In this document: in pieces, positions 2,590-12,487 of the stretch
Layout of the letters: the number at the start of each line of letters is the position of its first letter
Numbering within the stretch: position 1 is the first letter of the stretch
NCBI RefSeq assembly: GCF_002025255.2
Contig: NZ_CP054587.1
Span: 2,232,001 to 2,296,000 of the forward strand
DNA: 64,000 nucleotides
Source: Halolamina sp. CBA1230
Lineage (GTDB): Archaea; Halobacteriota; Halobacteria; Halobacteriales; Haloferacaceae
Direction of reading: 5' to 3'
The notes under the pieces: generated by a model
Databases searched by the model: none
What the model saw: only the letters and a program-made list of their open reading frames with translations
What the model was told of the DNA's origin: nothing
Program-made: the position numbers and the translations under genes

Positions 2590-2922
2590 TCACTCGGCCG
2601 GCGTCGTCTCGGTAGCTGTTGAGCTATCTATCGCAGTTCCGTTCGGCGTTTCGGTGGTACTGGGTGTTGCTGTCGCGGTTCCGTTCGGCGTTTCGGTGGT
2701 ACTGGGTGTTGCTGTCGCGGTTCCGTTCGGCGTTGCTGTCGGTGTCGTATTCTGGCCGACTTTACTCGGTGTCGCCGGGGTCTCGGTTGCCGGCGCTTCG
2801 TCGACGCTGACGGACATCCCGACTGTCTCGGTGTCGGCCAACGAGGCGACGGTAAATCCGCCCGTAAACCCGGCCAGCAGGACTACCACAACGATAACGA
2901 GCACGCCGGTCTTACTCGCCAT
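2590..2922 (-). CDS. Thr/Pro-rich single-pass surface protein, last gene of the TasA-like operon
   Basis: 110 residues: one N-terminal transmembrane segment (TGVLVIVVVVLLAGFTGGF), then an extracellular tail rich in Thr, Pro and Asn with N-x-T sequons in a repeated block (ETPNGTATATPSTT). Such tails are typical of glycosylated spacers crossing the haloarchaeal S-layer. The start ATG at 2922 overlaps the end of the signal-peptidase gene (GATGGCGAGTAA), so translation is probably coupled. It ends in ...TETTPAE with no sorting motif. Function unknown; an anchor or stalk for the neighbouring secreted proteins is a guess. Confidence 0.7.
   Translation of the reverse strand: MASKTGVLVIVVVVLLAGFTGGFTVASLADTETVGMSVSVDEAPATETPATPSKVGQNTTPTATPNGTATATPSTTETPNGTATATPSTTETPNGTAIDSSTATETTPAE
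2636..2735. repeat. 42-bp tandem repeat inside the Thr/Pro-rich gene
   Basis: Two identical 42-base units (2636-2677 and 2678-2719) and a partial third (to 2735), each starting GTTCCGTTCGGCGTTTCGG on the + strand. They encode the repeated 14-residue block of the Thr/Pro-rich tail. Exact identity points to recent expansion and likely length variation between strains. Confidence 0.85.
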
Positions 2923-3784
2923 CGTTCTCACCTCTGGACCCGACAGTGCCGACAGCTGCCGGGAGGCTTTCGCCACCGTCGGTCACCTGGCGGTTCCGTG
3001 GCTGGCTACTGGTCGAGGGCGCTTCACGTCCGGCGACGAACACCGCGGCAACGAACGCGACGACAATCGCCGCGCCGGCGAAGACGCCAACGCTCACCGG
3101 CTGGGGGTCCTGGTACGCGATGTAACCACTGTACACCGCGAGGGCGCCGAACCCGACCGTGCTCAGCTGGAGGTCGCGGGTCGTAATCACGAGGCCGTCG
3201 TCGTCGGCCACCTCCGCCGGCGAGCCGAATTCACCGACATGCTGGCGGTCGGCTGGCTCAGGCTGTTCCTCCGGCGCGTCACTTCGCGTGAAGGCGTAGA
3301 GTTCGGAGACCACGAATGCGATCACCGGGAGCCCGATCAGGAGGGCCATCCCCCTCGGCGTGTTCGCGAACATCACCACGTAACCGACGTACGGGAGTAC
3401 CACCCAGACCTCGCCCGTGACGTTCTCGGCGGGGACGAGCGCGGGGTCCGGGTCGTCGTTGGCATCGCCTTTCGTGCGGAACGCCTGGCCCCCCTCGGTT
3501 TCGACGGCTTCTACGACACGGTGTGTCACTGGCGTCGATTCCTCGGCGCGCACGAACGTGATGACGTCACCGGACTCGATGTTCGCGGGGTCGACGCTTT
3601 TCACGATGACGGCATCGCCGGCCGATATCTCCGGCTCCATACTGTCCGAGAGCACGACGTAACTGGCGTCGGCGCCGACTATGCCGGGGACTGCCTGGAC
3701 GACGAAGACGCCGACAATCAGGAGTCCCAGGATGGTGACGGCGATTCCCGCCACGCGCCGAATAGAGGGGATCACGCGGACCAC
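2912..3784 (-). CDS. SipW-like archaeal signal peptidase I
   Basis: About 290 residues from a GTG at 3784 (an in-frame GTG at 3775 is also possible); longer starts would run into the upstream gene. An N-terminal transmembrane helix (IAVTILGLLIVGVFVVQAV) precedes the catalytic Ser in SDSMEP (~48), the His that replaces bacterial Lys in archaeal/ER-type enzymes (TPVTHRVVE, ~88), and Asp residues in KGDANDDPD (~107-113). Three further hydrophobic segments follow, more than in minimal enzymes. It lies directly after seven genes with SipW-type signal sequences, so it is the probable dedicated processing enzyme, as SipW is for TasA in Bacillus. It overlaps the next gene by 11 bases. Confidence 0.88.
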   Translation of the reverse strand: MVRVIPSIRRVAGIAVTILGLLIVGVFVVQAVPGIVGADASYVVLSDSMEPEISAGDAVIVKSVDPANIESGDVITFVRAEESTPVTHRVVEAVETEGGQAFRTKGDANDDPDPALVPAENVTGEVWVVLPYVGYVVMFANTPRGMALLIGLPVIAFVVSELYAFTRSDAPEEQPEPADRQHVGEFGSPAEVADDDGLVITTRDLQLSTVGFGALAVYSGYIAYQDPQPVSVGVFAGAAIVVAFVAAVFVAGREAPSTSSQPRNRQVTDGGESLPAAVGTVGSRGENDGE

Positions 3785-3827
3785 CCCGCAAGCGCCGGTG
3801 CAAGCGACCGTTTTCGGTTGTGTGTAG

Positions 3828-4853
3828 TTACTGCCATGGGTTTCTCGGATTCGTGTGACGGCATTGGCTGGCGAACAGTTCCAGATCGAACGACACCGAC
3901 TCACCGGCGACCGGTTTCGGGTTCGGGAGTCGCCAGTCCAGGGTGAGACACGCCGGCTCGCAGCCGACACAGCTGTCGCCGGCGCACTCGAAGATGACGA
4001 AGTGACTGAGGCCGCTCGGCCTCCCGGCTGGGTTCGATTCGGTGACCAACTCTTTCGCCGTGGCGGCACAGTCAGGCCGGTAGGTCACGACACCCGCATC
4101 GGGCCCCCCGCCGCCTTTCACGTCCACGCGGCAGAACTCGAACGCGTCCGCCCGGAGGTCGACACCACGGACTTCGTCCCCGTCGTCCTTCCAGTGGAGC
4201 CCCGTAATTTCGACGTCGACGGGGCCGTCAGGCCCGTCGAGAGTCAACGTCCCGGGGACGGCGTCGATGGGCAGCGACTCCCCGGTTCCTTCGGCGACGA
4301 ACTCGGCAGGATCCTCGGTGAGCTCGATTTTCCCGAGTTCCCGGCAGTTACCGGCACCGAGCAGGCTGCCCTCCCCGTACGCGTCGAAAAGTTCGGAGAG
4401 GGATCCCTCGTAGAGAGTGTCACCGGCCTCCTCGGCCGCAGGTGCGTACGTGAGCGTGACCTCCATCGCGTCGGCAAGTGTGCCGGATTCGCCGTCCTGC
4501 AGCCGCAACCAGACGCGGCCGGGGTTCTCACACACGCGGAACGCGACGGTCGTCGACCCGGACGTTTGGCCCTGGCTCGGGTCGATAGCCGGGAACGCGA
4601 CGGTGATCGTCGACTCCGGAACGAACGTCGACGGGAACGAGCCGTCCTGTTCCGGGGTGTACGACGTCGTGGACTCGGACTCGGTACGCGTCGCGATCTC
4701 GAGATCGAGCGACCCCCCCGCCATGGCGTTCGAACGGAACAGTTCGCCGTCGGTGAGGTACGCGTACGTGCCGACCCCGGAGGCGCCGCCGAGGCTCGCC
4801 GCCCCAGCGAACGTGACGCCACGCAGGATCGAACGCCGCGAGACGTCAGGCAT
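3828..4853 (-). CDS. TasA/camelysin-like secreted protein, divergent paralogue
   Basis: 341 residues with signal region SRRSILRGVTFAGAASLGGASG then GTYAYLTDGELFRSN, the SipW-type pattern shared with the genes upstream. The core follows the family order: SGSTTVAFRVCENPGRVWLRL, a DAMEVTLTY strand, and C-terminal LTLDWRLPNPKPVAGESVSFDLELFASQCRHTN. It differs in an insert containing several Cys (FECAGDSCVGCEPACL and others), suggesting disulphides. Likely a secreted fibre or matrix subunit. The gene has its own probable promoter and an upstream short ORF overlapping its start, so it and the peptidase may be expressed apart from the first six paralogues. Confidence 0.8.
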   Translation of the reverse strand: MPDVSRRSILRGVTFAGAASLGGASGVGTYAYLTDGELFRSNAMAGGSLDLEIATRTESESTTSYTPEQDGSFPSTFVPESTITVAFPAIDPSQGQTSGSTTVAFRVCENPGRVWLRLQDGESGTLADAMEVTLTYAPAAEEAGDTLYEGSLSELFDAYGEGSLLGAGNCRELGKIELTEDPAEFVAEGTGESLPIDAVPGTLTLDGPDGPVDVEITGLHWKDDGDEVRGVDLRADAFEFCRVDVKGGGGPDAGVVTYRPDCAATAKELVTESNPAGRPSGLSHFVIFECAGDSCVGCEPACLTLDWRLPNPKPVAGESVSFDLELFASQCRHTNPRNPWQ

Positions 4854-4902
4854 CGTCGATTCCCTCCGTTTCTGTCCGGGGCACGCCCACGCGTACGTCC
4901 AT
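4846..4902 (-). CDS. Short upstream ORF (18 codons) overlapping the start of the TasA-like gene
   Basis: An ATG at 4902 opens 18 codons (MDVRVGVPRTETEGIDDA) whose TGA overlaps the ATG of the next gene (ATGCCTGA). It lies ~23 bases after a TATA-like box, so the transcript could start at or near this ATG. It may be a leader peptide that couples or regulates translation of the downstream gene, or simply an accidental ORF; there is no coding evidence beyond its arrangement. Confidence 0.4.
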   Translation of the reverse strand: MDVRVGVPRTETEGIDDA

Positions 4903-4917
4903 TGTTGACATACTTAT

Positions 4918-4932
4918 TGGTCTATTTAGGCG
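4918..4932 (-). promoter_or_regulatory. Probable internal promoter (TATA box) of the distal part of the cluster
   Basis: On the minus strand GCCTAAATAGACC lies about 23 bases before the upstream ORF ATG at 4902 and about 72 before the ATG at 4853. The spacing to 4902 fits archaeal TATA-to-start distance for a leaderless transcript. The 4854-4964 gap is also clearly richer in A/T than neighbouring gaps in this cluster. Confidence 0.5.
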
Positions 4933-4964
4933 CCGAGCTGGCTGTTTAACTGGTCGTGAAACAG

Positions 4965-5648
4965 TCACGTCTCATCACACGGTTCGACCGTGAAGCTGAG
5001 CGACGTCTCGACGCTGTCTCCCTGTATTCGGTTCCCGACCGACCGGGGCAACGACCAGGAGATGCCGACACAGACCGCGCTCGTCGGGTCGAGGCAGTCG
5101 CCGCCGAGCGGAACCCCCTCGGCGAGTGCAGTGTCCGCGTCGACTAGCGACCCGTCCACGAGCACGGTCTCCGCAACGTCCAGGTCCCCGTCACAGCCGC
5201 CGAGCCCGGAGACGCCGAGCGACCCCGTGTCGTACCAGACCGCGACGTCGAGGGCGTCGGCGAGTTCGCCGCGATCGGTGGTCGTGTCGCCGGCGCTCCG
5301 CTCGGGCTCGTTCCGGCCGTTCTCGCTGTTCGCGGTGAGCGCGAGCGACATGCTGGCGCTCACTGCTTGATCGTCGTTTTCCGGCGTCACTCGGAACGCT
5401 AGCGTCCCGGAATCTCCTGGGTGGGCGTTTCCGACGTTGAGGGCCGGTTCGTCGGTCGTCTCGTCACCGGCGTCGACGACCGTGCCGTTGTACGTCTCCC
5501 GCCAGTCCACGCGAACCGACGGGTCGCTGCCGACCGTCGTCGACGACTGGTAGGCGACCGCGTCCGAGGTGAGCGCGGTGAGGCCCGCTACCGACGCCGC
5601 ACCAGCCAGCGCAACGGACCCGAGCAGTCGACGGCGGTTCAACTCCAC
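4965..5648 (-). CDS. TasA/camelysin-like secreted protein, short paralogue
   Basis: 227 residues from a GTG at 5648, three bases from the end of the previous gene (its TAG is at 5651-5653), which implies translational coupling. Signal: ELNRRRLLGSVALAGAASVAGLTALTSDAVAYQ. The core is shorter and more diverged than its neighbours: VGNAHPGDSGTLAFRV replaces the usual VKPGD motif and the protein ends LSFTVEPCDET instead of EQCRNND. GISWSLPRSVGNRIQGDSVETSLSF keeps the family C-terminal signature. Likely a minor or terminal fibre subunit; role inferred only from family and position. Confidence 0.75.
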   Translation of the reverse strand: MELNRRRLLGSVALAGAASVAGLTALTSDAVAYQSSTTVGSDPSVRVDWRETYNGTVVDAGDETTDEPALNVGNAHPGDSGTLAFRVTPENDDQAVSASMSLALTANSENGRNEPERSAGDTTTDRGELADALDVAVWYDTGSLGVSGLGGCDGDLDVAETVLVDGSLVDADTALAEGVPLGGDCLDPTSAVCVGISWSLPRSVGNRIQGDSVETSLSFTVEPCDET

Positions 5649-5650
5649 GG

Positions 5651-6643
5651 CTACGCCTCCGTGAACGGGCTCGTCGCCCCGTCGTTGTTCCGGCACTGTA
5701 CTGCCGCGAACGTGAGGTCGAAGGTCACGCTGTCGCCCTGCACGACGTTCCCGACGCTCGCGGGGAGCGTCCACTCGAAGCCGAGGTACCGGGCCTGTTC
5801 GTCCTCCGGCTGGTCCTGCGGGAAACAGTCGCGGTCGGCAGTTTCGGGATGTCCGTCCAGTGGTATGCCGTCGTCGACTGCCGCGAGCAGCTCCCCGAGC
5901 GTTCCCTCGAAGACGAGCGGGCGCTCGGGCGGCGTCTCGTCGCTCTCGCGGTCCTCGTCGCCGTCGTCGTACCAGAGCGTCACCTCGATGGCGTCGGGGA
6001 GCTCGCCCGCGCTGGAGCCGTCACCGGGGTCGTCCTCGGCCGCGGCGTCGAGCTCCGGCTCCACGACCGCGCCCTCACTGTTGGCGTCCAGCGAGCCGCC
6101 GAGCCAGACGTACCCGGGCTCGTCGAACAGGTGCATGCTGTAGGTGACCGATCCGAAGTCGCCGGGTTTCACGTCGTCGAGGTCGATGACCGGCCCCTCC
6201 ACGACGAAGTTCGGAGAGTTCGCGAACTGTTCGCGGTACGCCTGCTCGACGGCGACGCGGTCAGCCTCGTCGAGATCGCCGTATGCCGTTCCGTGCATAT
6301 CCTCGACCACGTCGTCGCGAGTCCGTATCGGGTCCTGGATGCCGTCGGGCTCCTCGACCGGCGGGCTGTTCGTGTCGAGTTCGTCGGGATTGTTTGGGTC
6401 GTTCTTGTACCGGTCCGGAAACGCGTTGACGTACTCGGTCCCGTTCCCCCGGTCGTACTTCTGTTGCCAGTCCAGTCGCGCGTCCATCGCCCCCGCCGTG
6501 ATCGTGTTGTCCTCGAACGTCTCGGAGTCACTGAGAAGGGCGGTCGTGCCGAGGCCGGCACTAGCCGACGCCAGCCCGACGCCGCCCAGCCCAGCAAGTA
6601 CGGTGCGCCGCGAGAGTCGGTAGTGTTGCCTGTCGTCGCTCAT
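5651..6643 (-). CDS. TasA/camelysin-like secreted protein
   Basis: 330 residues. Signal LSRRTVLAGLGGVGLASASAG then LGTTALLSDSETFEDNTITAG, the most conserved N-terminus in this family. Core landmarks: LDDVKPGDFGSVTYSMHLFDEPGYVWLG, DAIEVTLWYDDGD, and ASVGNVVQGDSVTFDLTFAAVQCRNND near the C-terminus. An insert at about residues 55-125 (rich in Asp, Asn, Pro) is absent from the short paralogues. Exported and cleaved by the SipW-like peptidase by inference. Its leader carries one of the tRNA-like structures (6664-6714). Confidence 0.85.
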   Translation of the reverse strand: MSDDRQHYRLSRRTVLAGLGGVGLASASAGLGTTALLSDSETFEDNTITAGAMDARLDWQQKYDRGNGTEYVNAFPDRYKNDPNNPDELDTNSPPVEEPDGIQDPIRTRDDVVEDMHGTAYGDLDEADRVAVEQAYREQFANSPNFVVEGPVIDLDDVKPGDFGSVTYSMHLFDEPGYVWLGGSLDANSEGAVVEPELDAAAEDDPGDGSSAGELPDAIEVTLWYDDGDEDRESDETPPERPLVFEGTLGELLAAVDDGIPLDGHPETADRDCFPQDQPEDEQARYLGFEWTLPASVGNVVQGDSVTFDLTFAAVQCRNNDGATSPFTEA

Positions 6644-6663
6644 GGTTGCTCCCCGAACGGGAA

Positions 6664-6714
6664 ACCCACCGGCGGAGTCGAACCGCCGTTCCGCGGCCGC
6701 GTACCGACGTGGGT
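6664..6714 (-). promoter_or_regulatory. tRNA-like folded leader A upstream of the 5651-6643 gene
   Basis: On the minus strand the leader reads ACCCAC (6714-6709) ... GGCGGTTCGACTCCGCC (6687-6671) G GTGGGT (6669-6664). The outer stem (6 bp) closes around a T-arm-like hairpin whose loop TTCGACT fits the canonical tRNA T-loop. A second small hairpin (CCCG/CGGG, 6651-6661) lies between this fold and the ATG at 6643. The same plan, with different stem bases, occurs before two neighbouring paralogues, supporting a real RNA structure. Confidence 0.6.
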
Positions 6715-6717
6715 CGA

Positions 6718-6738
6718 TTCGGACCGCTTGGGTCCGAA
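6718..6738 (-). terminator. 8-bp hairpin after the laminin-type paralogue
   Basis: TTCGGACC-CAAGC-GGTCCGAA on the minus strand, 23 bases after the stop of the 6762-8546 gene. It could be a terminator, a processing site or an mRNA-stabilising end between two operon genes. No T-tract follows, so it is not a classic archaeal terminator. Confidence 0.4.
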
Positions 6739-6761
6739 CGATGGTGGTCGATTATGGGTCG

Positions 6762-8546
6762 CTACGGCTGCATCGAGACGTTGTCGAGGTAGCCCTTGTC
6801 GGAGCCAGAGCGGTACTCGCCGCGGATCCGGAGTTCGGTGAGGTCGGCGAGGACTGTCTCAATCTCGGTCTGGGTGGCGGCGCTGCCGCTGACCATCCAG
6901 TTGTCGCTCTCGTCGAGCGTGACGTTGTAGGATGTCCAGTTGCCGGACGTGCCGTTCCCGGGATTCTGGGCCGTATCGTAGGTCAGCGTGAGGCCGCCAC
7001 CGGATAGCGTGATGTCGTCGTTGTCGAACTGACTCGGACTGCCGGAGAACTCCTGCATGAGGTCGAACGACAGGGTTCCGCCGTAGAACCCTGACTTGCC
7101 GCCAAGGAACTTCCCGGGCGCCTCGAAGTACCAGGTCCCGCCCTGGACGTCGTCCGTCGCGGAGATCGATGGAGCCGGGTTGCCCGCCGACGGCTCGTAG
7201 TCTGGGACGGACGCGCCGCCCTGTGCGTCGCCGGTGATCTTCCAGCCGTCGTCGTCCTCATCGAAGGTACTGCTAACCGGACCGGGCGTGGAACTCGGGG
7301 GGACGAGTGTGAGCGTCCCTGGTCCGATTTCTCCGCCGTTGACGTCGACGACGACGGAGTAGTCGTCCGCGGACGAGGCGTTCGTGGCGTCCCGGTATTC
7401 GACGAAGATCGTGTCGCCCGTGGCGACCGTGACGCCGCCAGCCAGAGAGAACTGGATAGCGGTGTCGCTGTCGCTCGCGGTGGTCCCGGTGACGGTGACG
7501 GCGTCGATGCTGCTGTCCGCGCGTTCGACACCCGCACCGAGGACGTCCCCAGTTCCCACGCCGCCCACGTCGAAGTCGCCCGGATAATCCACCGCGAACG
7601 ACGAGAGGGAGTCACCTCCCAGGCCGGAGCCGACGGGCACCTCGACGCGGTGGATGCTGTCGGTCGCGCCGGCGGTGTCCGGTGTCGCGCTGATGGAGAC
7701 GGCGTCGGGTACCTCCTCCTCGCCCGTGCACGGATTGTGCGTGCCGTCGTTGTTTCGGCACTGCTCGGCGTGGAACGCCAGGTCGAACTCCAGTGAGTCG
7801 CCTTGGATCTCGTTGCCGACGGAGGTCGGAACCTCCCAGTCGAGGCAGAGACAGGGGTTGGACGCTTCGGCGGCGCCCGTGCCGGCGAAACAGGCCTGCT
7901 CACCCGGCACGTCGAACCCGCCGTCGCTGGCCGGTTCCCCGTCGCCGTCCAGAGGGACGCCGTTCTGAGTCGACGACATGAGGTCGGCCAAGCTTCCGCT
8001 CCACACCTCCGCGAGCGTCGAGACGTCCTCCGGGTCGAAGCTGTCCCCGACTTCGCCAACGTCGCAGTAGTTGACGGTGACGCTGATGCTCTCGGCCAAC
8101 TCACCCGCACCCTCCGGATCGCCGGGATCGTTGACGTCCCCGTTCTCACTCGTTTCGGGTTCCGGCTCCGTGTACCCGTTCTCGCTGTTCTCGGTGATCT
8201 CCCCACAGAGCCAGAGGTACGCGGGGTTTGTCTCGACGACGGGACAGAACGCCAGGAGCCCACTGTCGCCCGGCTTGACGTCGCCCAGCTCGGCGCTGAC
8301 GGTCCCGCTCCCGTCCTTGCTCCCTTGGACGCTGCCGGAGCCGGCCATCCCTTGGTCCCAGTAGGAGTAGTAGCCGACCAGCAGGTCGAGCGTGCCCGCG
8401 GTGATGGTGTTGTCTTCGAACGATTCGGTGTCGTTGAGATACGCGCTCGTTCCGAGGCCCGCGCTCGCCGACGCGATACCGGCGCCGCCGAGCCCGGCAA
8501 GCACGGTCCGCCTCGAGAGGCGGTATCGGTTGTTACGGTCACTCAT
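6762..8546 (-). CDS. TasA/camelysin-like secreted protein with C-terminal laminin-B-like domain
   Basis: 594 residues from the ATG at 8546. Residues 1-40 carry the family signal (LSRRTVLAGLGGAGIASASAG, TSAYLNDTESFEDNTITAG). The TasA-like core ends near 265 with VGNEIQGDSLEFDLAFHAEQCRNND. A beta-rich domain follows (~275-405; DSLSSFAVDYPGDF, IQFSLAGGVTVATGDTIFVEY). The last ~165 residues look like a laminin-B (domain IV) module: GGTWYFEAPGKFLGGKSGFY, GGTLSFDLMQEF, LTELRIRGEYRSGSDKGYLDNVSM. Laminin-B modules are extracellular matrix parts, so this is probably a large adhesive or capping subunit. The domain call is from pattern memory and needs a profile search. Confidence 0.82.
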   Translation of the reverse strand: MSDRNNRYRLSRRTVLAGLGGAGIASASAGLGTSAYLNDTESFEDNTITAGTLDLLVGYYSYWDQGMAGSGSVQGSKDGSGTVSAELGDVKPGDSGLLAFCPVVETNPAYLWLCGEITENSENGYTEPEPETSENGDVNDPGDPEGAGELAESISVTVNYCDVGEVGDSFDPEDVSTLAEVWSGSLADLMSSTQNGVPLDGDGEPASDGGFDVPGEQACFAGTGAAEASNPCLCLDWEVPTSVGNEIQGDSLEFDLAFHAEQCRNNDGTHNPCTGEEEVPDAVSISATPDTAGATDSIHRVEVPVGSGLGGDSLSSFAVDYPGDFDVGGVGTGDVLGAGVERADSSIDAVTVTGTTASDSDTAIQFSLAGGVTVATGDTIFVEYRDATNASSADDYSVVVDVNGGEIGPGTLTLVPPSSTPGPVSSTFDEDDDGWKITGDAQGGASVPDYEPSAGNPAPSISATDDVQGGTWYFEAPGKFLGGKSGFYGGTLSFDLMQEFSGSPSQFDNDDITLSGGGLTLTYDTAQNPGNGTSGNWTSYNVTLDESDNWMVSGSAATQTEIETVLADLTELRIRGEYRSGSDKGYLDNVSMQP

Positions 8547-8568
8547 GGTTGTACCCCTCTCGGGGGAG

Positions 8569-8656
8569 GCCCACCGGCGGAGTCGAACCGCCGCATCGCG
8601 GCACGGCTGTGGCGCAGCGACTGGCTGCGCGCGCACCGACGAAGGCCGGCGTGGGC
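8569..8656 (-). promoter_or_regulatory. tRNA-like folded leader B upstream of the 6762-8546 gene
   Basis: Minus strand: outer stem GCCCAC (8656-8651) with GTGGGC (8574-8569); inner hairpins GCGCAGC-CAGTC-GCTGCGC (8630-8612) and the T-arm-like GGCGGTTCGACTCCGCC (8592-8576). A further CCCC/GGGG hairpin (8554-8565) sits before the ATG at 8546. It is 88 bases, tRNA-sized, but has no canonical D-loop and no U before a plausible anticodon, so it is not called a tRNA. Confidence 0.6.
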
Positions 8657-8670
8657 GGAGAGAGCCATCG

Positions 8671-9501
8671 CTACGAGCCGCCGAACGGGGCGTCGTTGTT
8701 GCGGACCTGCTCGGCGTCGAACTGGAGCGTGAACGTCACCGAGTCGCCCTGGATCTCGTTGCCGACCTCCGGTGGAAGCTCGAAGAGCTGGTAGTAATGG
8801 ACATCCGCATAGTCGCTGACGCTCCCGACCTCGATCGGCGTGCCACTCGAATCACTGAGCACCACGCCGTCGAGATACTCGCTGTGGGCTTCGTTGAGGG
8901 TTGTGTAGTGCGCCCCGCTGGTCGTGACGCCGTCGAGGTCCGGCGTTTCGTACCCGGACAGCCACGTGTCGTTGTGGTCGGTGGTCTCGTCGAGATCCTG
9001 GAGCCCCCCACGGTCAGACCCGGCCGTGGAGTCCGTGCTTCCCCAGATGGTCGTGAGCAACGCGGCGCCGAGGTCGCCCGGTGCGGCGGTGTCGGTCTCC
9101 GCCTCGGGGTTGGCGCCCTCGGCGTTGCTGTAGTCCTCGTCGACCGACGTGACCTGCACGTAGCCGGGGTTGCCGTCGATCTCGACGTGCCAGTCGAGGA
9201 CGAACCAGTCGCCCGGTTTCATATCGTCGACGGTGACGGTGATCTCGTTCCCGTCGGCCGTGTCATCGGCGGCTTCGTCCGTGGAGTCGACGACTGGGTC
9301 CGGGAGCTCCGGGCTCTTGTCGTGGATGTCCACGGACACGAGCATGTTCAGCGCGCCTGCGGTCAAGCTGTTCCCCTCGAACGACTCGGTGTCGTTGAGG
9401 TACGCAGTCGTACCCAGGCCGGCACCTGCGGACGCGAGTCCGACGCCGCCGACGCCAGCGAGCAGTTTCCGCCGTGTGAGTTCGAGTCGTTTGTCCGTCA
9501 T
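8671..9501 (-). CDS. TasA/camelysin-like secreted protein, W-type paralogue
   Basis: 276 residues from the ATG at 9501. Signal: LTRRKLLAGVGGVGLASAGAG, TTAYLNDTESFEGNSLTAG. It belongs with the 11422-12264 protein in a subgroup where the core motif is MKPGDWFVLDWHVEIDGNPGYVQVT and a segment HYTTLNEAHSEYLDGVVL precedes the C-terminal PPEVGNEIQGDSVTFTLQFDAEQVRNND. Ends FGGS after the conserved motif. Presumed secreted fibre subunit. A longer frame exists upstream but runs through the previous gene and the leader structure. Confidence 0.85.
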   Translation of the reverse strand: MTDKRLELTRRKLLAGVGGVGLASAGAGLGTTAYLNDTESFEGNSLTAGALNMLVSVDIHDKSPELPDPVVDSTDEAADDTADGNEITVTVDDMKPGDWFVLDWHVEIDGNPGYVQVTSVDEDYSNAEGANPEAETDTAAPGDLGAALLTTIWGSTDSTAGSDRGGLQDLDETTDHNDTWLSGYETPDLDGVTTSGAHYTTLNEAHSEYLDGVVLSDSSGTPIEVGSVSDYADVHYYQLFELPPEVGNEIQGDSVTFTLQFDAEQVRNNDAPFGGS

Positions 9502-9527
9502 TTTTGGTCGCTCCCCTGTCGGGGGAA

Positions 9528-9585
9528 GACTCACGAGCGGAGTCGAACCGCTCGGCACGCTGCTCGTGCCGCACCTGCGTGAGTC
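9528..9585 (-). promoter_or_regulatory. tRNA-like folded leader C upstream of the 8671-9501 gene
   Basis: Minus strand three-way junction: outer stem GACTCAC (9585-9579) with GTGAGTC (9534-9528), hairpin GGCACG-AGCAG-CGTGCC (9570-9554), and T-arm-like hairpin GAGCGG-TTCGACT-CCGCTC (9553-9535). A CCCC/GGGG hairpin (9513-9524) follows before the ATG at 9501. All stems differ in sequence from leaders A and B but keep pairing, while the loop TTCGACT is constant. Confidence 0.62.
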
Positions 9586-9620
9586 GAAACCGCCGGAAAG
9601 AAGTTGGGCCCGAGCTTGGA

Positions 9621-11414
9621 TTAGCTCCCTCCTGGGTTGTCGTTGTTCCTGCACTGCTCCGTGTAGAACCCGAGGTCGAAGCTCAGCGAGTCGCCCTGGA
9701 TCTCGTTGCCGACAGTAGTCGGCACCCACCACGCGAACCCGACGTAATGGGTCACGCCTGGCATGAAGCACTCGCGGCTGTCTGCGAACGGGTCGCCGGC
9801 CAGTTCGTCGAACTCGCTCGCACGATTCCCGTCCAGTGCGATTCCTTGCCCGGACTCGAGCAGGTCGAGGTCACCAGCGAGTGTCCCGCGCCGGAACACC
9901 TCGCCGCAATACGCGCCGGCGGTCATGTCGCCGAAGTCGTACTCGTAGGGCTCGTTGTCGAGCGTCATCGCGTACGACTCGGTGATACTGCCGTCGGTCC
10001 GATCGACGACGTGGATCTCGTCGTTGTCGCGGTCGGAGGCGACGAGGTTTCCGGTGCCGGCGTCACGGATGGCCAGTCCGGTGATACGCTCGTCTTTCAC
10101 GCCGATGTTATCCTCGTCGACGGGAACGGCCGTCGGATCGTTGCTCGGATCGTTGACCTGGTAGAGTCCGTCGTCGTCGGTGTTCGCCGTCCAGATGTAC
10201 ATCGTCCCGTCGGAAGAGAACACGAGGTCCGCCCCCGAGAGATCGATACCGGTGTCTCCCTGAGACGTGACCGAGGGAGCCGACGGATCCACGGTGTAGA
10301 GTTCGTCCGTGTCTTGGCTCGCCGCCCAGAGCGTTCCACTCGGCGAGTATCCGGCAAGGACGATTCCGCCGGGGTCGCTGGAAATCGGCCCTTCGTCGGT
10401 GAATGTGTCGCCGTCGATGTCGTACGTTCCCAGGTGTCCGGAGTTCTTGTCGTAGAACAGGATCTTGTCACCGTTGGGTGTCGTGGCGATCGCGTCCGTC
10501 TGATCGAAGTCGTTGTCGCTGTACTCACCGGGACCCAGGAGCTCGGTCAGCTCTGCCTCGCCACTGTCGTCGTCCAGCGTGACCTCGAACAGGGTGGTCG
10601 GACTGGTTCCGCTGTCAGCAAGGTACAGCTTCTCCTCGCAGTCGGTCTGGAGGACGTTGTCGCCCCGCGAATCGTACCACCAGACTGTTTGGATGTTCTC
10701 GGCGAGCTCCGGCATCTCGGACGTCTCGTCGACTTCACCCTCCGGGTCGTTGATGCCGTTCTCCGCCTCGGAGAAGCCCATCGCCTGCAGCCACACGTAC
10801 CCGGGGTTGTCACAGAGGTGGAAGCTCAGTGTTAACTCCCCGAAGTCGCCGGGCTTGACGTCCTCGAGACTGATGAGGGGTTTCGGCTCGCCTTCGGTGC
10901 CGACCGTGCTGTCGTTGTTTGTGCGCGTAGCAGTCCCCTCCTCGCCGGGGTCGAGGTCGTCGTTGAGGTCCGCGCCGTGGTCGCACGGCATGTACGTGAA
11001 CTCTCCGTCCTCGACTTCCTGCACGCCATCGTGGTTTGGGTCCGGGAACGCCTCGATGGACGTGTTCATCATGTACGTCCCGAGGTCGTCCTCGTGGACC
11101 CAGACCTGCGGATTCGATGGGTCGGGCATCCCGACGTAGTTGTCCGGTTCGTCGGGCTCCGAGCGGTGGACACCGTAGTCCAGCCCGTTCTCGGGGTCGT
11201 CGAACCCGTAGAGCTGGGGGTAGGAGTAGTGCTCCTCCCAGTCGACTTTCAGGTCGAGCTCGCCCGCGCTAATCGTGTTGCCCTCGAACGACTCGGTGTC
11301 GTTGAGGTACGCGCTCGTTCCGAGGCCCGCACCCGCGGAGGCGAGGCCGACACTGCCGAGGCCCGCCAGCACCTTGCGGCGGGAGAGTTCGAACGACGTG
11401 GATCTATCACTCAT
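9621..11414 (-). CDS. TasA/camelysin-like secreted protein with inserted beta-propeller-like domain
   Basis: 597 residues. Signal LSRRKVLAGLGSVGLASAGAG, TSAYLNDTESFEGNTISAG. Core: LEDVKPGDFGELTLSFHLCDNPGYVWLQ and C-terminal TTVGNEIQGDSLSFDLGFYTEQCRNND. Between them, about residues 258-490, lies a block of repeated strands resembling propeller blades: AIATTPNGDKILFYDKNSG, AGYSPSGTLWAASQDTDELYTVD, FSSDGTMYIWTANTDDDGLY, RDAGTGNLVASDRDNDEIHVVD. Such propellers usually bind proteins or sugars. The core resumes after the insert (MTAGAYCGEVFRRGTLAGDL). Only eight bases separate it from the gene upstream. Confidence 0.83.
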   Translation of the reverse strand: MSDRSTSFELSRRKVLAGLGSVGLASAGAGLGTSAYLNDTESFEGNTISAGELDLKVDWEEHYSYPQLYGFDDPENGLDYGVHRSEPDEPDNYVGMPDPSNPQVWVHEDDLGTYMMNTSIEAFPDPNHDGVQEVEDGEFTYMPCDHGADLNDDLDPGEEGTATRTNNDSTVGTEGEPKPLISLEDVKPGDFGELTLSFHLCDNPGYVWLQAMGFSEAENGINDPEGEVDETSEMPELAENIQTVWWYDSRGDNVLQTDCEEKLYLADSGTSPTTLFEVTLDDDSGEAELTELLGPGEYSDNDFDQTDAIATTPNGDKILFYDKNSGHLGTYDIDGDTFTDEGPISSDPGGIVLAGYSPSGTLWAASQDTDELYTVDPSAPSVTSQGDTGIDLSGADLVFSSDGTMYIWTANTDDDGLYQVNDPSNDPTAVPVDEDNIGVKDERITGLAIRDAGTGNLVASDRDNDEIHVVDRTDGSITESYAMTLDNEPYEYDFGDMTAGAYCGEVFRRGTLAGDLDLLESGQGIALDGNRASEFDELAGDPFADSRECFMPGVTHYVGFAWWVPTTVGNEIQGDSLSFDLGFYTEQCRNNDNPGGS

Positions 11415-11421
11415 CGTTCAC

Positions 11422-12264
11422 CTAGGTGTCCGTAGTGTTGCCGGTGCTGTTGTCAGCGAACGGATCTCCGTTGTTTCGGGACTGTTCGGTGTCGAAGACG
11501 AGGTCGAAGCTCAGCGAGTCGCCCTGGATCTCGTTGCCGACTTCCGTCGGGATCTCGAGCAGCAGGCAGAACTCTGGATTGAACTCGTCACCGTCGTCCC
11601 CGATCTCCATCGGCATTCCGTCGCTGTTCATCAGGGTAACGCCCGTGCTGTACGTGTCGTAGGCCTCCTGAAGCGTGGTGTAGTGTGGTCCCTCAGTGAT
11701 TTCACCGCCCTCCGAGCGTGACGAGTCCCAGCTGTGGGTCGGTATCGTATCGCCCGCGTTGTTCGTTGTGTCGTCGAGACCCGTGAGGTCACTACGACTT
11801 TCACCGTCGAAGCTCTGCCAGACAGTCGCCAGAATGGCCTCTTCGAGTTCACCTTCACCGTTTTCGTCCTCTTCCTCCGGTTCCGTGTAGCCGTTCTCGG
11901 ACGACGTGAGGTTGGCAGTGCTGACTTGGACGTAACCGGGGTTATCCCCGATGTCGATGTCGAAGCAGATGATCGCCCAGTCGCCGGGTTTGACGTCGTC
12001 GACCACGAGGCCAGTAACGGCCTCGCCGTCGGCCGTTTCGGACATCGGGAATTCTGCTTGGTCCTCCCAGTAACCGTTAGCAGCCTCGATCTGTGCGGTA
12101 ACGCTCATGTCGAGCGTGCCCGCGGTGATTGTGTTGTCTTCGAACGATTCCGTGTCGTTGAGGTACGCGGAGGTGCCGAGCCCGGCGGCGGCACCGGCGA
12201 CACCGATGGTGCCGAGACCGCCCAGGACGCGACGTCGCGTGAGTTCGAGTTTCTTTTTCGACAT
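11422..12264 (-). CDS. TasA/camelysin-like secreted protein, first gene of the cluster
   Basis: 280 residues from the ATG at 12264. Signal LTRRRVLGGLGTIGVAGAAAG, TSAYLNDTESFEDNTITAG. W-type core: VDDVKPGDWAIICFDIDIGDNPGYVQVS, then HYTTLQEAYDTYSTGVTL and PTEVGNEIQGDSLSFDLVFDTEQSRNN. It is the promoter-proximal gene of the run of paralogues and so perhaps the most expressed, a candidate main subunit. Its leader has a GTGGCA-AGGCC-TGCCAC hairpin (about 12285-12301) but no T-arm-like fold. Confidence 0.85.
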   Translation of the reverse strand: MSKKKLELTRRRVLGGLGTIGVAGAAAGLGTSAYLNDTESFEDNTITAGTLDMSVTAQIEAANGYWEDQAEFPMSETADGEAVTGLVVDDVKPGDWAIICFDIDIGDNPGYVQVSTANLTSSENGYTEPEEEDENGEGELEEAILATVWQSFDGESRSDLTGLDDTTNNAGDTIPTHSWDSSRSEGGEITEGPHYTTLQEAYDTYSTGVTLMNSDGMPMEIGDDGDEFNPEFCLLLEIPTEVGNEIQGDSLSFDLVFDTEQSRNNGDPFADNSTGNTTDT

Positions 12265-12487
12265 GGTTTCAGTCGGCCAGCCACCGTGGCAGGCCTTGCC
12301 ACAACCCACTATCCCCCACCCACATAGCTAATCGCGGAATTTGGAGAGAAACGACCGGTTTGGCGCTTCTTAGTCAGATATTGAGGTTTTAATCGGGGGC
12401 TCAGCGCCAGCTAAGTGAACCGCTAGGAGATCGACATAGTGGTAAGACAACCGATAAATAAGCGGGTGGGCGTTTTGGGGTCGGTGT
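12265..12487. promoter_or_regulatory. Divergent promoter region between TasA-like cluster and DUF7344 regulator
   Basis: On the + strand CCGATAAATAAG (TATA near 12453-12460) lies about 30 bases before the ATG at 12488, giving a nearly leaderless regulator transcript. On the minus strand GATTAAAACC and CAATATCTG (about 12376-12395) are candidate TATA elements of the cluster, leaving a ~100-base leader. The region is where the DUF7344 regulator could act on both genes. Confidence 0.55.

Follow-up and report, generated by a model that had tools for sequence, protein, structure and literature searches.

The minus-strand gene cluster at 2912-12264 of a 64,000-nt stretch of the Halolamina sp. CBA1230 genome (contig NZ_CP054587.1, positions 2,232,001 to 2,296,000; the whole stretch is referred to here as the window) raises the question of why three of its protein-coding genes are preceded by leaders that resemble half of a transfer RNA (tRNA). 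The cluster encompasses seven genes with SipW/TasA-type or similar leader peptides and the gene for an archaeal SipW-type signal peptidase, and the structured leaders precede genes 3, 4 and 5. Because matching elements precede the 5S ribosomal RNA (rRNA) genes of the same genome, and because processing of such elements by tRNase Z and RNase P has been published, the three leaders are read here as messenger RNA (mRNA) t-elements, i.e. half-tRNA mimics of the 5S class, which are probably cut by tRNase Z and perhaps also by RNase P. Their tRNA-like nature is strongly supported by sequence comparison, and tRNase Z is proposed as the acting enzyme by close analogy.

Half-tRNA architecture of the leaders

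In the 5' to 3' direction of the message, each element consists of an acceptor-like strand, a middle part, one strand of the T-stem, the loop TTCGACT, the second T-stem strand and the second acceptor-like strand; a C/G hairpin containing GGGG(A/T) and then the ATG come next. The 6-bp T-stem and the acceptor-like stem of 6 or 7 bp add up to a stack of 12-13 bp. The outer stem, TTCGACT hairpin and C/G hairpin that the first-pass annotation had described as shared were present, with the stems that it gave, in all three minus-strand leaders, and inspection of the junctions before genes 1, 2, 6 and 7 bore out its view that the remaining leaders lack the element. T-hairpins with a TTCGAYT loop and a 6-bp closing stem occur four times in the window (the three elements and one more), whereas 60 Markov-1 random sequences averaged 0.05 occurrences and never exceeded one. 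The exact 15-mer GCGGTTCGACTCCGC is present in three copies in the 3.47-Mb genome, all within this cluster.

Immediately upstream of each of the two 5S rRNA genes in this genome lies ACCGAG-CTTGGTTTGC-TCGCGG[TTCGATT]CCGCGA-CTCGG, in which the acceptor is CCGAG/CTCGG, the linker CTTGGTTTGC carries a GG at offset 3 and 13 nt separate the loop from the 5S start. Across 29 5S loci examined in relatives, the TTCGAYT loop was observed in 19 of the 20 T-arm rows listed after removal of repeats, the other loci being cut short or lacking a T-loop or T-arm. In two relatives (loci L294 and L303) the stems upstream of 5S rRNA are kept and the T-loop is absent.

The mRNA leaders thus share with the 5S t-element a 5-7-bp acceptor, a linker of about 10 nt with GG at offset 3, a 5-6-bp T-stem closed by G-C and a TTCGAYT loop, and like it they directly adjoin the RNA that would be released. 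Unlike the 5S type, they precede protein genes in mRNA in multiple copies, usually add a C/G hairpin that carries a Shine-Dalgarno-like sequence and often an extra middle hairpin, and their cleavage is a prediction. A comparable stacking of acceptor stem on T-arm, with 12-13 bp and a T-loop elbow, characterizes half-tRNA minihelices; these are laboratory constructs, unlike the natural, recurrent elements described here. Plant mitochondrial t-elements are likewise tRNA-like structures at mRNA ends that are cut by tRNA-processing enzymes, whereas the present leaders are archaeal and associated with a single class of exported proteins. Reportedly, the haloarchaeal 5S t-element was studied by Hoelzle and colleagues in 2008, work known here via later papers. 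According to passages of such papers, the 5S t-element of Haloferax volcanii is cut by tRNase Z (PMC3296008, PMC4326828), t-elements are substrates of both RNase P and tRNase Z (PMC4326828) and H. volcanii t-elements free CRISPR RNAs in vivo (passages among PMC3296008, PMC4326828 and PMC4946936); a half-tRNA minihelix is stated to suffice for processing by tRNase Z and RNase P (passages of PMC3714273).

Comparison with the tRNAs of the genome set the elements apart. The 42 tRNAs that exceed the Rfam score carry the T-loops TTCAAAT (26), TTCGAAT (12) and four others, all TTCRAAT or close variants, and none of the 42 has TTCGAYT, so that position 59 separates tRNAs from t-elements in this genome. 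ARAGORN and Rfam made no tRNA call at the three elements; as canonical tRNA (RF00005), only tRNA-Sec-like scores of 23.8 and 16.8 bits were obtained, compared with a gathering score of 47, and in the window an Rfam 15 scan returned no family above gathering score at the elements and only three true tRNAs. A plain tRNA remnant was rejected because of these missing calls and the absence of TTCGAYT from the 42 tRNAs.

Compensatory changes and a conserved GG

For the covariation analysis, five elements with a middle of at least 30 nt were removed from 77 elements with a short middle or an unusual acceptor core, leaving 72 rows (alignment A7). Over 13 pairs in these 72 distinct elements, 94.8% of the cells were paired, compared with 88.2% in shuffles, and 61 cells had changed on both sides, whereas shuffles gave 14.9 such cells and slid structures no more than 13. 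T-stem swaps were seen among relatives, e.g. from GGCGG/CCGCC to GACGG/CCGTC. Some alignment rows were wrongly placed by MAFFT (in alignment A5, and one row of A6).

As the 72 rows had been preselected for a paired acceptor core, a partner test on unusual cores was also run as the fairer one. A fixed-offset acceptor test had given a modest excess over swapped partners, since most cores are identical, which is another reason for turning to the unusual ones; the same identity explains the high level of the swapped-partner control (at least 6 bp in about 30%, compared with about 56% for the own partner). For the unusual cores, the partner with N1-4GG after it was found upstream in 16 of 22 own leaders (CTCAC 3/3, CTCGC 3/3, CCCGC 4/6, CCCGG 5/6, CCCGT 1/1 and two others 0/3), compared with 9-16 of 193-198 other leaders per core. 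The exact partner of the 5-nt acceptor core is present in 162 of 199 collected elements, and the sixth acceptor pair covaries weakly (84 of 162 Watson-Crick, compared with 63.6 in permutations). The homologous leaders therefore contain true compensatory changes, which supports the tRNA-like RNA element proposed in the first-pass annotation in the form of a 12-13-bp stack of T-arm and acceptor.

An exact 6-nt acceptor partner is present in 88 elements, 72 of which have their first GG at offset 2 or 3 after the acceptor, where shuffled middles gave an expectation of about 13. In relatives the middle part is reduced to as little as 9 nt with the GG retained 2-3 nt after the acceptor, giving minimal forms such as CCCAC-TCGGAGCAC-T-arm or CCCAC-ACGGTGTAC-T-arm. 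By analogy with G18-G19 of tRNA, we infer that this GG may dock on the T-loop.

The three-way junction that had been proposed for the leaders fared unevenly: it fits the element before gene 3 well and the one before gene 4 loosely, and its third arm is weak before gene 5 and often absent in relatives. Nearest-neighbour folding, in which tertiary contacts and high salt lie outside the model, favoured the t-element fold before gene 3 with pair probabilities of 0.99. As a defining shape, the three-way junction was rejected, given that in many relatives the middle part measures 9-11 nt and forms no hairpin.

Distribution and gene context

A protein search within the genus led to loci with eleven further copies of the element. 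A covariance model built from the 3' half of the element only (R1) was run on 392 genomes of the order and, at E<=1e-7, matched 103 of them, representing 41 of 95 genera. In a phylum-wide draw, for which the share of the 392 genomes beyond the order is not stated, matches at E<=1e-6 occurred in 28 of 392 genomes, all of them from the window genome itself or from the same genus, family or order. The exact pattern GRCGGTTCGACTCCGYCGGTGGG matched 82 stretches in a collection of 84,980 species; the 80 matches listed are all haloarchaeal, except for one in a spirochaete metagenome-assembled genome, which is letter-for-letter the 3' half of an apparent true tRNA.

The 199-element set was pooled from the exact-pattern matches and from those non-redundant covariance-model hits that have a TTCGA loop and an upstream sequence longer than 150 nt, and it includes the one spirochaete tRNA (L213). 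A probable coding-region false hit with the loop CTCGACT (L039) is counted among the 132 non-redundant covariance-model hits and lies outside the 199-element set. The loop was TTCGACT or TTCGATT in 124 of these 132 hits, and the loop-closing G-C pair was present in all 199 collected elements.

A gene with a SipW-type signal peptide lies downstream of 166 of the 199 elements, 155 of these genes being TasA-like and 11 of the GAFTSV type. A candidate start codon was present downstream of 127 of the 132 non-redundant hits, and a regular expression recognized a SipW-type signal for 114, as it did for 87 of 107 distinct exact-pattern matches; several elements without such a call have, by eye, plainly related genes downstream. 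In a 59-genome draw, TIGR04088 cargos were encoded in 8 of 9 genomes with a strong element. Other downstream genes include those for DUF1102 proteins (loci L217 and L149), and two GAFTSV-type cargos of the window genome score with the NCBIfam TafE/TafA fimbrial models, below cut-offs. In one locus (L228:3236-3860, reverse strand) the element lies directly upstream of a signal peptidase I gene, not of a cargo gene. A DUF1102/Taf-like cluster of the window genome holds a second element (L289:5862, 0-based) with the loop TTTGACT and no intact gene close downstream, perhaps marking a decayed gene. Elsewhere in this genome, outside the SipW clusters seen, a t-element-like hairpin pair with the loop TTCGATT directly follows the stop of an open reading frame (ORF; L238, near 1500, reverse strand).

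Position relative to the downstream gene is regular: a median of 24 nt separates the end of the 12-nt stack from the start codon, 148 of 155 TasA-type leaders, compared with 252 of 1550 shuffled segments, have a hairpin of 4 bp or more directly after the stack, and a Shine-Dalgarno-like 4-mer precedes the start in 133 of the 155. The C/G hairpin was rejected as a core part of the element, as it is missing before 5S rRNA and in 9 of 166 SipW-type leaders (7 of 155 TasA-type and 2 of 11 GAFTSV-type), and an unrelated hairpin takes its place in L008 and L017. Upstream, a same-strand coding-like ORF was found for 165 of 189 assessed elements.

Within the cluster itself (Table 1), the junctions are of three kinds, namely 2-7-nt gaps (genes 1-2 and 5-6), a gap of 111 nt that contains an AT-richer stretch (genes 6-7) and G+C-rich gaps of 118-124 nt (genes 2-3, 3-4 and 4-5), and the elements are confined to the last of these. 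A profile search of the window proteins matched TIGR04088 to genes 1-5, and family searches of these proteins gave no match for gene 6. Before gene 1, a motif built around ATTAGCTAT, with a G-rich stretch after it, was observed at 12324-12332 (minus strand); it occurs once in the window, compared with 0.01 expected, is also found before the first genes of related clusters (loci L118, L150, L153, L161, L187 and L227) and possibly represents a shared promoter or regulator site.

Table 1. Genes, t-elements and hairpins of the minus-strand cluster (window coordinates; scores are those of covariance model R1)
Feature	Position	Strand	Description
Gene 1	11422..12264	-	TasA-like SipW-type cargo, TIGR04088; leader without element
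Gene 2	9621..11414	-	TasA-like; 7 nt from gene 1; without element
t-element before gene 3	9528..9585	-	Acceptor 9579-9585/9528-9534, GACTCAC/GTGAGTC; GG 9574-9575; middle hairpin 9554-9570; T-arm 9535-9553, GAGCGG/CCGCTC; loop 9541-9547, TTCGACT; 65.7 bits
C/G hairpin, gene 3 leader	9513..9525	-	Adjoins predicted cut; contains Shine-Dalgarno-like GGGGAG; ATG at 9501
Gene 3	8671..9501	-	TasA-like; element in leader
t-element before gene 4	8569..8656	-	Acceptor 8651-8656/8569-8574, GCCCAC/GTGGGC; GG 8646-8647; long middle; T-arm 8575-8593, CGGCGG/CCGCCG; loop 8581-8587, TTCGACT; 71.9 bits
C/G hairpin, gene 4 leader	8554..8566	-	Precedes ATG at 8546
Gene 4	6762..8546	-	TasA-like front and C-terminal Laminin_B domain; element in leader
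t-element before gene 5	6664..6714	-	Acceptor 6709-6714/6664-6669, ACCCAC/GTGGGT; GG 6704-6705; T-arm 6670-6688, CGGCGG/CCGCCG; loop 6676-6682, TTCGACT; 67.9 bits
Short C/G hairpin, gene 5 leader	6651..6661	-	Precedes ATG at 6643
Gene 5	5651..6643	-	SipW-type cargo; element in leader
Gene 6	4965..5648	-	RRRxxLG-type leader peptide; 2-nt gap; without element
Gene 7	3828..4853	-	RRSILRG-type leader peptide; 111-nt gap with AT-richer stretch; without element
Signal peptidase I	2912..3826	-	Archaeal/SipW type; TIGR02228, 126 bits

Proposed processing of the messages and alternative explanations

If the leaders act as t-elements, tRNase Z would bind the elbow of the acceptor/T-arm stack and, by analogy with 5S rRNA, cut where the acceptor stack ends, about 13 nt downstream of the T-loop; a further cut, 5' of the element, might be made by RNase P. 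This would leave the downstream cistron with a leader of ~23 nt that opens in the C/G hairpin with its Shine-Dalgarno-like sequence, and the message of the upstream cistron would terminate in the stable element, to which CCA may be added. In this manner every subunit of a single surface filament would receive a message of its own, with individual stability and translation.

Several results weigh against this reading. The elements before genes 4 and 5 have near-equal alternative folds by nearest-neighbour folding, and in the 152 elements folded in this manner a pairing probability above 0.5 was reached for the T-stem in 76% and for the acceptor core in 56%. The exact 5-nt acceptor partner is absent in 37 of the 199 elements, and in 25 and 20 of the 72 rows, respectively, the two outermost acceptor positions do not pair. 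The make-up of the 199-element set favours TTCGAYT loops, since TTCGACT was part of both the seeds and the pattern and only TTCGA loops were retained. In the 59-genome sample, 8 of 16 genomes with TIGR04088 cargos lack a strong element. Furthermore, by eye, about a dozen of the 189 assessed elements lie in first-gene leaders without an upstream gene, so that cistron separation cannot be the sole role; the strictly inter-cistronic position proposed for the element is not general among relatives, and restriction to intra-operon gaps was rejected as a defining feature.

The elements in first-gene leaders would suit an uncut structured leader, in which the tRNA mimic would be bound by a protein (a synthetase, a dedicated regulator or an enzyme that modifies T-loops) and, together with the C/G hairpin that covers the Shine-Dalgarno-like sequence, would set the translation of each cistron. 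The fixed start-codon distance and the frequent hairpin after the stack agree with such a role, and tRNA-like operators control translation comparably in bacteria. However, the same class of element precedes 5S rRNA, an untranslated RNA, its geometry is that of a known minimal substrate of end-processing enzymes and some SipW-type leaders lack the hairpin, and translational control by an uncut leader is therefore considered unlikely, albeit worth keeping in view. A role at the 3' end of the upstream message, where the stack, with or without CCA, would stabilize or terminate that message and any downstream effect would be secondary, appears decidedly improbable: the upstream stop is close by and the stacks are very stable and G+C-rich, yet spacing is fixed to the downstream start codon and less so to the upstream stop, and a subset has no upstream gene at all.

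Explanations in which no RNA function is involved are fainter still. Recurrence at the borders of paralogous genes is what would be expected of a DNA-level attachment or cassette recombination site that derives from a tRNA T-arm and shuffles surface-protein genes, the RNA fold being a by-product, and tRNA 3' halves are common attachment sites; such a site is nonetheless very hard to reconcile with compensatory changes on both helix sides, with the strict strand and start-codon spacing and with the presence of the element before 5S rRNA. That the elements are remnants of tRNA genes or chance hairpins finds a foothold in the spirochaete match, where the 3' half is identical to that of a tRNA, but it is barely credible given the missing tRNA calls, the absence of TTCGAYT from the tRNAs of the genome and matches in 103 of 392 genomes against a chance level of 0.05 per window; conservation and covariation already refute it as a full account.

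The element is of a known kind, with its place and scale apparently new, depending on which loci are covered by a 2012 Biochimie study by Hoelzle and colleagues, known by citation, that reportedly dealt with tRNA-like elements of Haloferax volcanii and may overlap with the mRNA leaders. In a literature search judged by titles and abstract openings, none of the papers describes the mRNA element; both Hoelzle studies were outside its reach, and absence from print is not claimed. Beyond the cluster, we lean slightly towards an order-wide, undescribed class of mRNA t-elements that punctuates operons of SipW-exported fibres (TasA-like and Taf/DUF1102-like), with routine cutting by tRNase Z, a possible CCA tail on the upstream message and the TTCGAYT loop class setting such cut signals apart from real tRNAs.

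If this holds, a 5'-phosphate at the acceptor edge, and possibly CCA on the upstream message, would be predicted to be visible in existing RNA sequencing data, and the 103 genomes would represent ready loci for the in vivo study of tRNase Z. Splitting of archaeal coding messages through tRNA mimicry and tRNase Z cutting would then be widespread, rather than a curiosity of 5S rRNA, and would be linked to a single functional class, that of SipW-type surface fibres; it would also explain how genes that share an operon can yield different amounts of product.

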